Shown: positions 38,135 through 50,682 of the stretch, one piece after another
How the letters are laid out: every line of letters starts with the position of its first letter
Position numbering within the stretch: the stretch's first letter is position 1
DNA from: Desulfovibrio sp.
Lineage (GTDB): Bacteria > Desulfobacterota > Desulfovibrionia > Desulfovibrionales > Desulfovibrionaceae
DNA: 53,905 nucleotides
NCBI GenBank assembly: GCA_031269345.1
Contig: JAISZH010000168.1
Coordinates: forward strand, 1-53,905
Direction of reading: 5' to 3'
Notes under the pieces: generated by a model
The model's input: the letters and a program-made list of their open reading frames with translations, nothing else
Told to the model about the DNA's origin: nothing
Database searches by the model: none
Translations under genes and position numbers: made by a program

Positions 38135-38366
38135 AGCGGTTCACGAAGGAAACCAGGAAGGTAGCATGGGCCTTCAGGTCCATGCGTCTTGCGCTTGGGC
38201 GGGGTCGGACTATCCGGTCTGAAGGCCGGGGTCTCAAACCGTAAAGGAAGCTCAGATGAGTGAACCGCTCTGCAAGGATTTGCGTGCAAATCCTTGCCGC
38301 GAAACAGGAGCAGGCGGGCTTTGCCCGCCGTAAGCTAACTGTTTCAAGCGGAACGGGCGCAGGTCG
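38132..38366 (+). repeat. Repeat family A, copy A6, interrupted by a ~104-bp insert (38154-38257)
   Basis: tagagcggttcacgaaggaaac [insert] gagtgaaccgctctgcaaggatttgcgtgcaaatccttgccgcgaaacaggagcaggcgggctttgcccgcc. Confidence 0.85.
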
Positions 38367-40837: not shown

Positions 40838-42745
40838 ATGTGCGCAGCCGCGCGAACACTGCCGGGGCAAAAGGCGTTGGACCTCAGTGGGGTCAAGCGG
40901 TCCTTGCCTGAGGCCCTTGCATCGGCTGTCGTGCCCGAGCATTCCGTGGCCTTTATGCGCGCCATGTCGGGCGGCGTTGCTTTTTATGAAGGGGAGTTTA
41001 TCTTTCTTCACGCCGAGGATTGGTTGATGGGCATCGGCTATCCTTTGCGCGAGGCCGCCCTCTTCGAGCTTGCCGATGCGAACAGCCCGGCGGCGCTGGA
41101 CAACGCCCTTTCTTTTGAAGCCGCCCTGAAAGCGGTCCTCGGACGCACAAAGGCGAGATCGTGCTGGGCCATTGCCCCGCTCCTGCCGGAACGGCTTGAG
41201 CCTTTTACAGAGTGCCGCGACCAGTATTACCTTCTCAACAGGGATTCTTCAGTGCCGAAAAACTTGCGGAGGCCGCTGGAAAGCGTCGCCCGCCGTCTTT
41301 CGATCACCGAAGATCGTCTGTTCACCCCCGCCCATCGAAGACTCTGGGCCGAATTTCTGGGGCGCGCGCCGATGCGGCCCAACGTGCGGGAGCTCTACGC
41401 CCGCACGGAAGCCGTGCTGGCGGTGAGCCGGGCCTCCATGGCGAAAGAAGGCGCTGCGCGAAACGAAACCTTTTTGGATTTGCGTTTGCTGAACGCCTGG
41501 CATGAGGACGGCTCGCTGGCCGCCTCGCTTCTCCTTGATTACAGCCCCCCGGCCTTTTGCGCTTATATGATTGGCGCGCATTCCAAAGAGCGCTACTCCC
41601 CGCACGCCACGGATCTGCTTTTTGCTGAAATGCTTGTGAGGGCGCGCAGGGAGAACAAACGATTCATTCATCTGGGTCTTGGCGTTAACGAGGGCATCAC
41701 GCGTTTCAAGCGGAAATGGGGCGGACGGGCGGCCCTGCCATACGTTATGGCGTCCTGGACCGAAGACGGCGGCGCCGGATACGGTCAAAGGCGCGGCAGC
41801 GATGCAATCGGAGCGGCGGCGCGGGCCATACTGGCCATGCCCGCCGATATGAGCAAACAGCAGATTTTCGACGGGTTCGCGCAGCAGCGCACTTTTGCCA
41901 TGATTTTTGAGGTTGCCGGGCAGGGCGCTGTTTCCTATCTTTGCGGTTCCGCGCACTTTTTCCGCTATTCTTTCGAGTTTTCCTTCCGCGAATTGTTCGA
42001 GCCGCTGCATACGGTGGTTTTTGAAGGGCCTCTGGACGAGGCTTTTCTCGCGGCGGTGGAGTCCAGCGGGCGCAGCCCCGAACCGGGCTCGCCCAGAATC
42101 GTTGACCTTCTGACGGAGCGGGACATCGCGCGTCTTGAACGCGCCGTATACGGTCCTGAAGGGAGTTTGCTCCGCCTGCTGGGCCTGTCCGCTCCACGGC
42201 GGATCGATCTGCGGGATCTTCTGTCCAATGCCCGGCCCTGGTTCGCCTTTTTTTCTATCTGGGTTGCCTATCTTGAGCGGCTCGGCTGGCGGGAGTCTGT
42301 GGATCTCGAAGCCTGGCGCACGGCCAAAGACATGGGCAAGGCGGTTATCGCCATGGAAAACATTGACGAACAGCTCGATTCGCTGCAGTCGGTGCCCATA
42401 GAACGCATTGCGGATTTTTTCCGCCGTTGCCGCTTGTGGCCCGCCTGCGTCAAGCGCAACGTAAGCAGCTACCTGAACGGCGACTTAGGCGGCATGATGG
42501 GTAGCAGCATCGAATTTCCGTCACGAACGGAAATGGTCATCGACCGGAGGGATGAGCGTTTTCGCAGGCGCATGCGTCCTTTTCTTGAGGCGGGCGGCTG
42601 CGCGGTGTTCGTGGGCACGGCTCACCTGGTAGGGCTTATTCCCATGCTTGAGGCCGACGGCTTTGCCGTGCGTCAGGTGTACCCAAGCCTCAGACTCAAG
42701 CTCCGGGCGGCCGCGAAACGTCTGTGCGCCGGCAAAAAAACGTGA
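40838..42745 (+). CDS. Fusion protein: N-terminal FemAB/GNAT-like acyltransferase region + C-terminal TraB/GumN-like domain
   Basis: HLGLGVNEGITRFKRKWGGRAALPYVMASW then YLCGSAHFFRYSFEFSFRELFEPLHTVVFEGPL ... VFVGTAHLVGLIPMLEADGFAVRQV; 7-bp gap after proA. Confidence 0.75.
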   Translation: MCAAARTLPGQKALDLSGVKRSLPEALASAVVPEHSVAFMRAMSGGVAFYEGEFIFLHAEDWLMGIGYPLREAALFELADANSPAALDNALSFEAALKAVLGRTKARSCWAIAPLLPERLEPFTECRDQYYLLNRDSSVPKNLRRPLESVARRLSITEDRLFTPAHRRLWAEFLGRAPMRPNVRELYARTEAVLAVSRASMAKEGAARNETFLDLRLLNAWHEDGSLAASLLLDYSPPAFCAYMIGAHSKERYSPHATDLLFAEMLVRARRENKRFIHLGLGVNEGITRFKRKWGGRAALPYVMASWTEDGGAGYGQRRGSDAIGAAARAILAMPADMSKQQIFDGFAQQRTFAMIFEVAGQGAVSYLCGSAHFFRYSFEFSFRELFEPLHTVVFEGPLDEAFLAAVESSGRSPEPGSPRIVDLLTERDIARLERAVYGPEGSLLRLLGLSAPRRIDLRDLLSNARPWFAFFSIWVAYLERLGWRESVDLEAWRTAKDMGKAVIAMENIDEQLDSLQSVPIERIADFFRRCRLWPACVKRNVSSYLNGDLGGMMGSSIEFPSRTEMVIDRRDERFRRRMRPFLEAGGCAVFVGTAHLVGLIPMLEADGFAVRQVYPSLRLKLRAAAKRLCAGKKT

Positions 42746-42746
42746 T

Positions 42747-43751
42747 TCAGGGTTTTTTCCCCCATAAGCCTGACACACGGCTCAAAAAGCCTGGTGCAAG
42801 CGTCTTTTTGCCGCCAGCCGGCAGTTGCCACGAGGTTTCAACATAGGGGAGAAAGGGCTGGGCCTTCCATTTTTTTTTGAAAAAACCGATGCCGCTGTTG
42901 ATGCCGAGGCCGAGGTTCATGCGGCTGTGCCCCATGGTTTCCGCATGGCTCAGCAGGCGGGCGAGAAGGAGGTCGGCGCTGCCCGGCGGCGCAGTTTTCC
43001 GGCGAAAGGCGAACATGTAAAAAGCCGTGTGCAAACCGCTGAAGTCGCCTATGCTGAAAGCCGTGAGCCGCCCGTCGTTCAGGCGGGCCGAGACGAGAAG
43101 CACGTTCCGCGCCTCCCCGGGCGCATCGTCGGGTTCTTGTAGGGCGTAGCGATTGATGGAGGAAAACACCGCCCTTGTACCGGGCGGCAGAGGGCGCGTA
43201 TCGAGGTATTCCCGCACGATATCCGCGTGCTCGTCGCTCCAGGCTTCAATTTCAACGGTGAGATCGCGTCCGGCCCTGGTGAGCATGTTGCGGAGCTTCT
43301 GCCCGACGGGCGGCGCTGGTATCGGCAGCCGCCAATACAGGTCGGCGCGGCTTTCGGCGTCGCTTGGAGCTTCTTTCGGGCGGTAGGGCGCCAGCACAGT
43401 GACCGAGGAACAGCTTTTTGCCAGTTCCTCAAGAGCTTCGTGCAGAGACGGGGGTTCGGGAAAAGGCGATCCGGGCGCCGGACGGGGCTGCGCCTCGCCA
43501 GCCTCTTTGCCCGGGCCGCCGGACCAGTCAGGATCTCCTCTGCCCTTAGCGTCGCAACTTGATGGCGAATACCGGGGTTCCGCCCGGGGAGCGCCGGAGT
43601 AGGCCGCCAGAACGGCGTGCCCTTCGTGAATATACGCGGCGTACTCGCGGCAGAGCAGAGCGCGCCTGCCGGAAACCGCGCGCACATAGTGCACGAGTTG
43701 TTCGGGCACGACGGCCTCGGCCGTGATATGGGAAAGTGACGCGCCAAACAT
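42747..43751 (-). CDS. FemAB/GNAT-like acyltransferase, paralogue of N-terminal half of the 40838-42745 product
   Basis: MNLGLGINSGIGFFKKKWKAQPFLPYVETSWQLP; start taken as ATG 43751 since the longer ORF-track N-terminus is antisense to the radical SAM gene. Confidence 0.75.
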   Translation of the reverse strand: MFGASLSHITAEAVVPEQLVHYVRAVSGRRALLCREYAAYIHEGHAVLAAYSGAPRAEPRYSPSSCDAKGRGDPDWSGGPGKEAGEAQPRPAPGSPFPEPPSLHEALEELAKSCSSVTVLAPYRPKEAPSDAESRADLYWRLPIPAPPVGQKLRNMLTRAGRDLTVEIEAWSDEHADIVREYLDTRPLPPGTRAVFSSINRYALQEPDDAPGEARNVLLVSARLNDGRLTAFSIGDFSGLHTAFYMFAFRRKTAPPGSADLLLARLLSHAETMGHSRMNLGLGINSGIGFFKKKWKAQPFLPYVETSWQLPAGGKKTLAPGFLSRVSGLWGKKP

Positions 43752-43784
43752 GCGGAGCTTCCGGCCTTTCCTGTGGAGGCAGTG

Positions 43785-44864
43785 ATGAAAACGCCAAGCG
43801 GACGAACCGACCCTTTTGACGACCCTTCCCTGCGCGGTCCTGGGGTCTGGCGTTCGCTGCGTGAAGCCTTCGGCGGCCTGCGCCGTCTGCTGGCCGTGGC
43901 CCAGGTGGAGGTGACGTCGTTTTGTCCCGGCGGCTGTGTCTATTGTCCGCATACCACCATGAAGGGCAGATGGAAAGCGCGACACATGCGCCCCGAAACC
44001 TTTGTCCGTCTGTGGCCGCTTTTTCTCGAAACCGAGCGGGTGCATTTGCAGGGCTGGGGCGAACCATTGCTGCACCCGCGTTTTCTTGACATGGTTTCCC
44101 TGGCCCGAAGGGCCGACTGCCGCGTTTCCACCACCACCTGCGGCCTTGTAATGCACGAACCGCTGGCCGAAGGCATTGTGCAAAGCGGCATCGACATCAT
44201 GGCTTTTTCCCTCACCGGCACATCCGAGGCCGCCAACAAGGCCGCCAGAACCGGCGTCGACTTCGGACGGCTTCTTGATGCCGTCCGGCTTTTGCGGCGG
44301 GTGCGCGAGAAAAGAATGGCCGTCCATCTTGAAATTCATTTCGCCTATCTGGTGCTGGCAAGCCAGATGGACGAAGTTCTGGCTTTGCCCGACCTGATGC
44401 AGGAGCTTGGCGTGCACGCGGCCGTTGTCAGCACTTTGGACTATATTCCCACAGCGGCATGGAAGGACGAGGCGTTCGCCCCGCATGAAAAGGGCAAGAC
44501 CGCCAGGGCCGGGGCGCTGCTGGAAGAAGCCTCGGCCAGGGCTGCCGGCATGGGCCTTGCCCTTTACTATTCCCTGCCGGGGGACAGCCCCGGCAGCACC
44601 TGCCTCGAACATCCGGAAAAAAGCGTCTACGTTGATGCGGAGGGCAATCTGTCCCCCTGTATCTACGTCAACCTCCCCACAGAGGATGAAGACCCAATGC
44701 GCCGCGTGTTCGGCTCGGCGCTTGCGATGAACCCCCTTGACATATGGCGCGGGGATGATTTTTCCGCCTTTCGCGAGGCCATGGTTTTTCGCAGGCCGGA
44801 CGCCCCCTGCGTTGAATGTCCCAAACGCTTCGCCTCGGGCAACAGGCTGACCTTGTCGCCATAA
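43785..44864 (+). CDS. Radical SAM protein with SPASM-like C-terminus
   Basis: VEVTSFCPGGCVYCPHTTMKGRW (CxxxCxxC), C-terminal CLEHPEKSVYVDAEGNLSPCIYVNLP...CVECPKRF; GGAGG SD. Confidence 0.88.
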   Translation: MKTPSGRTDPFDDPSLRGPGVWRSLREAFGGLRRLLAVAQVEVTSFCPGGCVYCPHTTMKGRWKARHMRPETFVRLWPLFLETERVHLQGWGEPLLHPRFLDMVSLARRADCRVSTTTCGLVMHEPLAEGIVQSGIDIMAFSLTGTSEAANKAARTGVDFGRLLDAVRLLRRVREKRMAVHLEIHFAYLVLASQMDEVLALPDLMQELGVHAAVVSTLDYIPTAAWKDEAFAPHEKGKTARAGALLEEASARAAGMGLALYYSLPGDSPGSTCLEHPEKSVYVDAEGNLSPCIYVNLPTEDEDPMRRVFGSALAMNPLDIWRGDDFSAFREAMVFRRPDAPCVECPKRFASGNRLTLSP

Positions 44865-45028: not shown

Positions 45029-45114
45029 AGAGCAATTTCACTTTGAAATTGCTCTGACGGCCGCGAGAGCGGACGCCCGCCGCGAATGCGCAAGCTCAAT
45101 TTATTTGCGCTGTT
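45029..45114 (+). repeat. Repeat family B, copy B1
   Basis: agagcaatttcactttgaaattgctctgacggccgcgagagcggacgcccgccgcgaatgcgcaagctcaatttatttgcgctgtt. Confidence 0.85.
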
Positions 45115-46029: not shown

Positions 46030-46114
46030 TACGAAGCCGTGCTTCGCAACGTCGGAGCGCGTCGGGCGTCCGCTCTCGCGGCCGCGAGAGCGATTTCAAA
46101 GTGAAATTGCTCTA
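46030..46114 (-). repeat. Repeat family B, copy B2 (reverse orientation)
   Basis: gggcgtccgctctcgcggccgcgagagcgatttcaaagtgaaattgctcta = inverted B1 core. Confidence 0.8.
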
Positions 46115-47488: not shown

Positions 47489-47579
47489 TTAGAGCAATTT
47501 CACTTTGAAATTGCCCTGGCGGCCGCGAGAGCGGACTCCCGCCGCGAAGGAGTAAGCGCAATTTATTTGCGCTGTTGAA

Positions 47580-47580: not shown

Positions 47581-47765
<185 letters not shown>

Positions 47766-48720: not shown

Positions 48721-50682
48721 ATGAAAATTTCCACTATTCTTGACTATGTTGATAATGGTCATATGGCCTTACCGGAATTCCAACGGGGCTTTGTCTGGAC
48801 TCGAGACAAGGTGCGCTGGTTATTCGATTCTCTGTACCACAAATATCCTGTGGGCAGTTTGCTGGTATGGGGTACGGAATCTCAAACCGCAATCCACCGG
48901 GGGGATGGGCAGATCACTCCCGGCGTGGTAAAACTGCTTCTTGATGGTCAACAACGATTGACTTCTCTTTATGGCGTTGTGCGCGGCAAGCCTCCCAAGT
49001 TTTTTGATGGGGATGCCCAAGCTTTCACGGGCCTCCATTTCCATCTTGCTTCCGAAACTTTTGAATTTTATCAGCCTGTTAAAATGAAAGGCGATTCCCT
49101 GTGGATCAACGTGAGCGAGTTGTTCCAGAAAGGACATACAGGGCATGGGGAAGTCATCCAGCGTTTGCTTGGCAACCCGGAATATGCCGCCCATGTGGGC
49201 GAGTATTCCCAGCGCCTGGGGAATTTGCTGGGTATCATTGAAACGGATTTGCATGATGACACTATAACTGGCGCGGATAAAAGCCTTGACGTGGTAGTGG
49301 ATATTTTCAACCGGGTCAATAGTGGCGGCACAAAACTATCTAAAGGCGATCTCGCTTTGGCTAAAATCTGCGCCGCATGGCCGGGTGGTCGTCAAGCCAT
49401 GAAAGTCAAGCTTAAGGAGTGGGAACATGCAGGGTACAACTTTACGCTGGACTGGTTGCTGCGTTCCATGAATACCGTCCTGACGGGTGAGGCGCAATTC
49501 TTGTACCTGCATGGGCGCGATGTGGATGAGGTACAGAATGCACTGGAGAAAGCCGAAAGATACATTGACACTTGCCTCAATTTGATTGGCGGAAGATTGG
49601 GCCTAGACCATGACCGCGTACTTTTTGGCCGTTTCGGCATTCCTGTCATGGCCCGCTATCTTGACCTCCGTAATCAACAGCATCTTGGCCCGATGGACGA
49701 CAAGGAACGGGACAAGCTCCTGTTCTGGTTCGTTCAGGCGGGTATGTGGGGCCGTTTTTCCGGTTCAACAGAAGGCAATATCGACAAGGACTTAGGCGCA
49801 TTGGAAGGAGAGAACGGAGGTTTGGACAACTTGTTGGAGACTCTGCGCCTGTGGCATGGAGGCTTGCGGGCCGAACCTGGGCATTTCAGCGGCTGGAGCC
49901 TTGGCGCACGTTTTTACCCTGTCCTCTATATGCTCACACGTATGGGAAATGCCCTTGATTTAGGCACTGGCCTACCGCTAAAAGCCAATCTTTTGGGCAA
50001 AATGAATAAGCTGGAAGTGCATCACATTTTTCCCAAGGCTCAGCTCTATAAGCGCAAATACGATAAATCGGCTGTAAACGCCTTGGCTAACTTCTGTTTT
50101 TTAATCAAAGACAGTAATCTGAGTATCAGAGACAGGCTGCCGGAAGAGTATTTCCCAGAAGTGGAACAAGCACACCCCGGCGTGCTAGCTTCACAATGGA
50201 TTCCTATGGATACAGATCTTTGGAAAATAGAGAATTTTTCAGTTTTTTTGAATGCACGTAAAGAGTTATTGGCAGAAGAGCTTAATCGGCACATGGAAGA
50301 TTTATTGCATGGAGATACTCACTGGTTGAGCAGTTCTGCCGCTATACCTGATGAACCGATCTTTGCAGACAAGATTAATGATGAAGAGCTGGACAGTTAT
50401 GTATATGATTTAAATGCTTGGATGACAATGCAAAATCTACCAGCAGGTATCATTTCTTATGATTTGGCTGATCGTGAAACGGGAAAACAAAAAGCAGTGA
50501 TTGATTTAGCTTGGCCTAACGGAATTTTGGAAAACCTAAGCCCACCTGTAGCCGTGCTTTTCAATGAAGAGCCTGGAATTATTTCCCTGGCAAACGAGTA
50601 TGGTTTGCGTTGCTTTACCAGCGTTACAGCTTTCCAGAAATATGTTGAATCCGAGATTAAGACAGATATTGGTGAAAAATAA
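48721..50682 (+). CDS. DUF262-family protein with HNH-like motif (GmrSD-type, putative defence nuclease)
   Basis: MALPEFQRGFVWTRDKVRWLFDSLYHKYPVGSLLVW, LLDGQQRLTSLYG (DUF262); LEVHHIFPKAQLYKRKY...ALANFCFL (HNH/DUF1524-like). Confidence 0.85.
   Translation: MKISTILDYVDNGHMALPEFQRGFVWTRDKVRWLFDSLYHKYPVGSLLVWGTESQTAIHRGDGQITPGVVKLLLDGQQRLTSLYGVVRGKPPKFFDGDAQAFTGLHFHLASETFEFYQPVKMKGDSLWINVSELFQKGHTGHGEVIQRLLGNPEYAAHVGEYSQRLGNLLGIIETDLHDDTITGADKSLDVVVDIFNRVNSGGTKLSKGDLALAKICAAWPGGRQAMKVKLKEWEHAGYNFTLDWLLRSMNTVLTGEAQFLYLHGRDVDEVQNALEKAERYIDTCLNLIGGRLGLDHDRVLFGRFGIPVMARYLDLRNQQHLGPMDDKERDKLLFWFVQAGMWGRFSGSTEGNIDKDLGALEGENGGLDNLLETLRLWHGGLRAEPGHFSGWSLGARFYPVLYMLTRMGNALDLGTGLPLKANLLGKMNKLEVHHIFPKAQLYKRKYDKSAVNALANFCFLIKDSNLSIRDRLPEEYFPEVEQAHPGVLASQWIPMDTDLWKIENFSVFLNARKELLAEELNRHMEDLLHGDTHWLSSSAAIPDEPIFADKINDEELDSYVYDLNAWMTMQNLPAGIISYDLADRETGKQKAVIDLAWPNGILENLSPPVAVLFNEEPGIISLANEYGLRCFTSVTAFQKYVESEIKTDIGEK

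Follow-up and report, generated by a model that had tools for sequence, protein, structure and literature searches.

Enzymes of three kinds resemble the proteins considered here. FemX, MprF (A-PGS, L-PGS) and the group of DhpH, Orf11, Sbb17 and Sba18 have two GNAT domains and, close to the C-terminus, a phenylalanine-lysine (F-K) dyad; the pair that is catalytic in DhpH is F328-K329, analogous to FemX Lys305 (PMC12945691). In the TraB/PrgY/GumN and TIKI superfamily (PF01963), roles have been described for the catalytic residues of the TIKI 2His/2Glu site (PMC6254334), and BtrN-type twitch radical SAM dehydrogenases perform a two-electron oxidation (PMC9012708). In a contig of 53,905 nucleotides from Desulfovibrio sp. 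(JAISZH010000168.1, assembly GCA_031269345.1), the whole of which we call the window, positions 40838 to 44864 encode relatives of all three: a fusion of a double-GNAT domain (GN) with a TraB/TIKI hydrolase domain (TB), a second double-GNAT protein (PA) and a radical SAM protein (RS). These four enzyme domains are inherited together as a conserved, previously undescribed set; the existence of this four-domain module and the linkage of its parts are near certain.

The module differs from each of its relatives. Compared with FemX, MprF and DhpH, which include its best structural matches, it has two co-occurring paralogues whose partners, fused or adjacent, are a TIKI hydrolase and a radical SAM enzyme, and the sequence relation is very weak. 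TB matches the profile of the TIKI superfamily over its full length and has the invariant His, Glu and His, but it is a cytosolic partner domain of a transferase and has no signal peptide; the Glu that stands two residues before the first His in RRSP ExH is Ser or Thr in TB. RS is closest by sequence to BtrN among solved structures and shares its four auxiliary cysteines, but does not belong to an aminoglycoside pathway. We found no paper that describes the combination of GN, TB, PA and RS.

Four domains inherited as one unit

GN-TB is carried by 23 of 149 genomes of the same family, and all 23 also have PA and the close form of RS (Fisher p 3.9e-26). RS occurs alone in only one of the 149, a genome that is 64% complete. 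A scan of species genomes added 80 further loci, including those of Desulfovibrio piger ATCC 29098, Bilophila, Mailhella, Desulfobulbus, Syntrophobacteraceae and Desulfobacterales, and a phylum-wide search gave 33 matches in 395 genomes. All four domains lie on the stretch that was read in 75 of 101 loci, a set in which a few records are present twice and many of the incomplete loci end at contig ends; the patterns used for the scan favour the clade with the fusion. Where PA or RS is not linked to GN-TB, it is usually present elsewhere in the genome, singly or as a PA-RS pair (for RS, in 7 of the 9 genomes tested).

The distances of the module's parts correlate with one another (r=0.86-0.93). 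The genes that surround the module vary from genome to genome, and its linkage is therefore not explained by a general conservation of gene order. No constant fourth or fifth partner gene is universal among the loci, the commonest being a YeiH-type permease. We are highly confident that GN, TB, PA and RS form one functional unit acting in one pathway.

An earlier note on this DNA had proposed that the three genes form an undescribed system, and both the domains it named, now confirmed by profiles and structure models, and their co-occurrence in other genomes bear this out. It had also placed the genes directly after proBA. The position is correct, as the fusion gene begins 8 bp downstream of proA, but it is incidental: genomes of the same genus keep the order GT9-ybgF-proBA without the module, and a functional link to proBA was rejected. 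In Desulfonatronospira, proA lies 1.4 kb from the fusion with unrelated genes between them.

Association with sulfite respiration

Dissimilatory sulfite reduction is the strongest signal in the genomic context. In the phylum sample, dsrA is present in 28 of the 30 genomes with a genuine module and in 190 of 395 genomes overall; of the two carriers that lack it, one genome is 80% complete and the other a fragment. Among good-quality genomes, dsrA is found in 22 of 22 carriers as against 149 of 306 (p 3e-7, with shared ancestry ignored). Within the Desulfobacterota sample, the module is thus found almost only in sulfite-respiring bacteria, and the genome of the window itself has dsrA.

In four genomes, dsrA lies 3.5-8 kb from PA-RS or from the whole module. 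The order in one of them (G320) is PA-RS-YeiH-IscU-NifS-dsrA-dsrB, a second (G270) is identical as far as its contig extends, and in the other two (G227, G455) RS and dsrA are 6.4 and 7.9 kb apart. In the loci L204:5709-14001 and L211:1-6264, PA-RS is followed by a YeiH-type permease gene, iscU, nifS and dsrA, with dsrB as well in L204, at whose end stands a gene for a CobB-like amidase.

Other sulfur genes also lie near the module. The YeiH-type permease (PF03601), present in 1-3 copies per genome, adjoins a module gene in ~15 distinct loci from several families, a number for which the expected value is a rough estimate; TusA and a sulphur-transport protein adjoin the module in one locus (L168), a TauE/SafE protein stands beside it in D. 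piger, and in one family the neighbours are ahbC-hemB-ahbD, of the siroheme-dependent haem pathway. We infer from this distribution and context that the product of the module most likely serves sulfite respiration.

Transporters of several kinds were seen at the loci. Most Mailhella loci (L060, L063, L065, L066, L072, L086, L095-L098 and others) have a CstA-type permease just downstream of the GN-TB-PA/RS pair, and in other lineages YeiH, TauE or MATE transporters adjoin the module.

Two putative double-GNAT transferases

The fusion protein has 635 amino acids (40838..42745, + strand), and its GN domain, residues 22-312 (40901..41773), is FemX- or LPG-synthase-like. PA, a protein of 334 amino acids, is encoded on the opposite strand (42747..43751). 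AlphaFold2 models of the fusion (predicted local distance difference test, pLDDT, 83.8; predicted template modelling score, pTM, 0.52) and of PA (pLDDT 84.9, pTM 0.82) are good within domains, with the relative placement of GN and TB unreliable. Both GN and PA are modelled as the double-GNAT fold, with Foldseek E values of 1e-7 to 4e-10 at probability 1.00. Their best matches are MprF, A-PGS, L-PGS and FemX (FemX, A-PGS and MprF at the top for GN), and the aminoacyl-tRNA-dependent peptide synthases Sbb17 and Sba18 are also listed. No sequence match to GN or PA was found among solved structures.

Profile scores are less uniform, and by sequence GN has hardly any match in the libraries. Acetyltransf_6 (PF13480, cut-off 22 bits) matches the window's GN below the cut-off (E 0.054, 14.1 bits), the window's PA above it (E 8.6e-6, 26.4 bits) and GN of the D. 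piger fusion above it (29.4 bits). LPG_synthase_C (PF09924) is matched by 21 of 24 PA proteins, the window's PA scoring 25.1 bits against a cut-off of 27.5. Since curated cut-offs are not consistently reached despite the fold and motif, we describe GN and PA as probably working like FemX and LPG-synthase enzymes rather than as shown members of those families.

The relation of the two proteins to each other is unambiguous from sequence comparison: hhalign aligns them over 263 columns with a probability of 100% (E 5e-39), so that PA is identified as a true paralogue of GN, as the earlier note had supposed. GN-TB orthologues are 47-55% identical among 22 aligned sequences. In an alignment of 68 loci, the F-K dyad is invariant in both proteins, within the motif F290-K291-x-K293-W294 in GN (41705-41719) and as F291-K292 in PA (42876-42881, on the − strand gene); D259/D260, H166/H175 and D128/D137 are constant or nearly so. 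By motif and fold position the F-K pair appears equivalent to that of DhpH; both copies look competent, and aminoacyl-tRNA is, by analogy only, the leading candidate for their donor.

A separate soluble protein of the LPG_synthase_C family (DUF2156; G000:C137:9836-10618 and relatives L192-L203) was present in every one of 26 genomes searched across the same genus, family and order. Profile comparison detected no relation between GN or PA and this second, genus-wide protein, in a weak test with 2 of 12 sequences on the wrong strand.

Hydrolase and radical SAM partners

TB occupies residues 346-635 of the fusion (41873..42742, + strand). PF01963 matches residues 356-613 over profile positions 2-263 of 263, with 103.3 bits against a cut-off of 26.8 (E 2.6e-29), which agrees with the TraB/GumN-like C-half first read from the translation. 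H373 (41954-41956), E396 (42023-42025) and H596 (42623-42625) are kept in 68 of 68 loci and, judged by their profile positions, appear to correspond to the TIKI active site. TB is therefore classed by its profile as a TIKI-type hydrolase with an intact predicted active site.

RS (43785..44864, + strand) matches PF04055 (9.6e-17) and PF13186 (2e-7). Its start is likely the ATG at 43785 behind GGAGG, giving 359 amino acids, and not the GTG at 43773, giving 363. The cluster motif CxxxCxxC (C51, C55, C58; 43923..43946) is invariant in the 68 loci. The C-terminus, previously called SPASM-like, matches Pfam's SPASM model (2e-7) but does not have the two auxiliary clusters and ~7 extra cysteines of a full SPASM domain: just four C-terminal cysteines are conserved (C277, C296, C346 and C349, as C-x18-C ... 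CxxC; 44601..44819), and the pattern C-x(15-24)-C ... CxxC recurs in 61 of 73 RS proteins. From its sequence, RS is of the BtrN-like twitch type, with one auxiliary [4Fe-4S] cluster predicted. BtrN is matched at 4e-12, and PqqE is also similar. The best NCBIfam relatives, matched by 22 of 22 aligned members, are TIGR04311 (a putative metalloenzyme maturase; 116 bits, cut-off 400) and TIGR04317 (a tungsten oxidoreductase maturase; 100 bits, cut-off 380), and at scores so far under the cut-offs RS is a member of neither. A more distant RS relative with 36% identity (L051:6702-7715, in genome G090) has no GN, TB or PA beside it; a YeiH-type permease gene is in its locus.

Throughout GN-TB, PA and RS of the window, no segment exceeds a mean hydropathy of 1.7 over 19 residues, and we found no membrane segment; nor does any part of the module have a signal peptide. 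The module's proteins are cytosolic in character.

Evolution of the module and its setting in the window

In other families of Desulfobacterota, each domain has a gene of its own; the four genes lie side by side and often share a few bases with their neighbours. A midpoint-rooted tree built from 68 complete modules shows the fusion of GN with TB arising once (58 loci, support 1.0), a single-chain GN-TB-PA once (11 loci) and a PA-RS fusion at least twice. The fusion in the window is thus a derived state, fusions having come after separate genes. Together with split loci in which GN-TB lies apart from PA-RS (L176, L178), the fusions suggest two half-modules, GN with TB and PA with RS.

PA is reversed in two loci only, the window and its sister, Desulfovibrio Ncb351_bin103 (L074). 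The convergent arrangement reported by the earlier note is real, as a rearrangement restricted to this genome and its nearest relative, and because that relative shares it the inversion is not an assembly error. In L074, genes for a MATE transporter and a LysA-like decarboxylase lie in between. A phase switch of PA through inverted repeats was considered and rejected, there being no convincing repeats at the borders of PA. In one genome (G199), L210:5453-7429 encodes a 658-residue chimera in which GN is joined to half of TB and to a C-terminal portion of RS, with neither PA nor CxxxCxxC; this is an internal deletion, with the module decaying as a block.

Elsewhere in the window, 48721-50682, 4 kb downstream of the module, encodes a GmrSD-type (DUF262) protein of 653 amino acids, a possible type IV restriction component. 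Intergenic stretches at ~45030-45110, 46060-46104 and 47540-47578 are apparently alike, their spurious translations sharing GRPLSRP...FQSEIAL, and are probably a repetitive intergenic element. Two spurious open reading frames at ~38260-38340 and 47660-47740 have a 22-residue stretch in common, which suggests a further dispersed repeat or an element present twice.

Discussion

The most economical reading of GN, PA, RS and TB is that they append, oxidise and release. GN and PA, as soluble double-GNAT transferases, would attach an amino acid from aminoacyl-tRNA to an acceptor; RS would oxidise either the attached group or the acceptor by two electrons; and TB would cleave an amide or ester bond, releasing or editing the product. 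Distribution and context suggest that the product could be, for example, a modified cofactor, a small metabolite or a protein terminus at the dsr step; candidates for the acceptor or product are a metabolite, a protein terminus and a group near siroheme. We put the probability of such an aminoacyl-tRNA-dependent tailoring pathway in sulfite-respiring bacteria at roughly 40%. Its logic is analogous to that of pearlin (3-thiaglutamate) biosynthesis, where an amino acid is appended from aminoacyl-tRNA, modified and released by proteolysis (PMC9016710). In the pearlin pathway the ligase is LanB-like and the scaffold is a peptide; it has no genes in common with the module, and we found no scaffold here.

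Several observations weigh against this reading. The tRNA dependence is a structural analogy only (TM-score ~0.5, 10-16% identity) and many coenzyme A (CoA)-dependent GNATs match too; the window's GN falls under the Acetyltransf_6 cut-off and its PA under that of LPG_synthase_C; and the F-K dyad is equated by motif and fold position, not by superposition. We saw no dsr gene beside the module in Desulfovibrionaceae, the window included, and the window's genome is without any YeiH-type permease. The p-values for dsr leave shared ancestry out of account. Finally, only ~15% of dsr genomes have the module; sulfite reduction therefore does not require it.

Two rival explanations concern the chemistry of the transferases. 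GN and PA could be ordinary Acetyltransf_6 N-acyltransferases that use CoA to acylate an amine, with TB as the deacylase. PA and the D. piger fusion do pass the PF13480 cut-off, and the structural matches include CoA-dependent GNATs such as VipF and a clavulanic acid GNAT, but these rank below tRNA-dependent enzymes, inspection by eye showed no clear Q/R-x-x-G-x-G/A CoA loop ahead of the helix starting at D259/D260, and the F-K dyad matches FemX-like enzymes; we consider this explanation unlikely. The ranking of MprF, A-PGS and L-PGS at the head of PA's structural matches would also suit a soluble aminoacyl-lipid system, in which PA and GN aminoacylate a membrane lipid in the manner of the MprF catalytic domain, with TB reversing the reaction and RS modifying either the amino acid or the head of the lipid. 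GN, TB, PA and RS contain neither a flippase nor any other membrane part, however, lipid genes were not consistently seen nearby, and two transferases and a radical SAM enzyme would be left unexplained; we consider this system improbable.

The remaining rivals concern the role of the whole module. The earlier note had suggested a tailoring pathway for a peptide or an envelope polymer. A functionally linked, undescribed set is what we find; a peptide substrate is not implied, because RS is a twitch enzyme and not a full SPASM one, and nothing points to an envelope polymer, because membrane segments and signal peptides are absent from every part. A pathway for a ribosomally synthesised and post-translationally modified peptide, with its precursor encoded elsewhere in the genome, would draw on the facts that twitch and SPASM enzymes often act on peptides, that RS resembles PqqE too and that TIKI enzymes can be peptidases. 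Against it, the substrate of BtrN is a small molecule, the loci have no peptide exporter in common, and, just as no precursor had been recognised before, no family of short open reading frames was found within 800 bp of the module when all short reading frames of ~100 loci were searched. A cluster of short reading frames from 31 loci was rejected as a precursor: it lies within the fusion gene itself, antisense to the linker between GN and TB. We regard such a peptide pathway as decidedly improbable. Still harder to credit is a mobile defence or counter-defence module. Its distribution would be patchy and its neighbourhoods changing, as observed, a GmrSD-type gene does lie downstream in the window and RS is weakly similar to pVip; yet GN-TB and PA match no PADLOC model, RS fits maturase models far better than viperin, plasmid and phage records are without a match, and the module sits among metabolic and sulfur genes rather than in defence islands.

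A more specific form of the append, oxidise and release pathway would be a novel tRNA-dependent pathway specific to sulfite respirers. In it, the pair of amino-acid transferases, together with the twitch radical SAM oxidase and the TIKI hydrolase, would either assemble and release a cofactor derived from an aminoacyl group or modify a protein or a group linked to siroheme, for use at the dissimilatory sulfite reductase step. As a whole, this form is possible and somewhat unlikely.

Dissimilatory sulfite reduction is the source of hydrogen sulfide in gut, sediment and groundwater, and carriers of the module include the gut species Desulfovibrio piger as well as Bilophila and Mailhella. If the proposed donors are wrong, there would still be four co-dependent enzymes that appear as a system in no family library or paper we found; if they are right, a new tRNA-dependent pathway would be added. 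Built from families of known chemistry and accessory to sulfite reducers, the module is a concrete target for finding a molecule.

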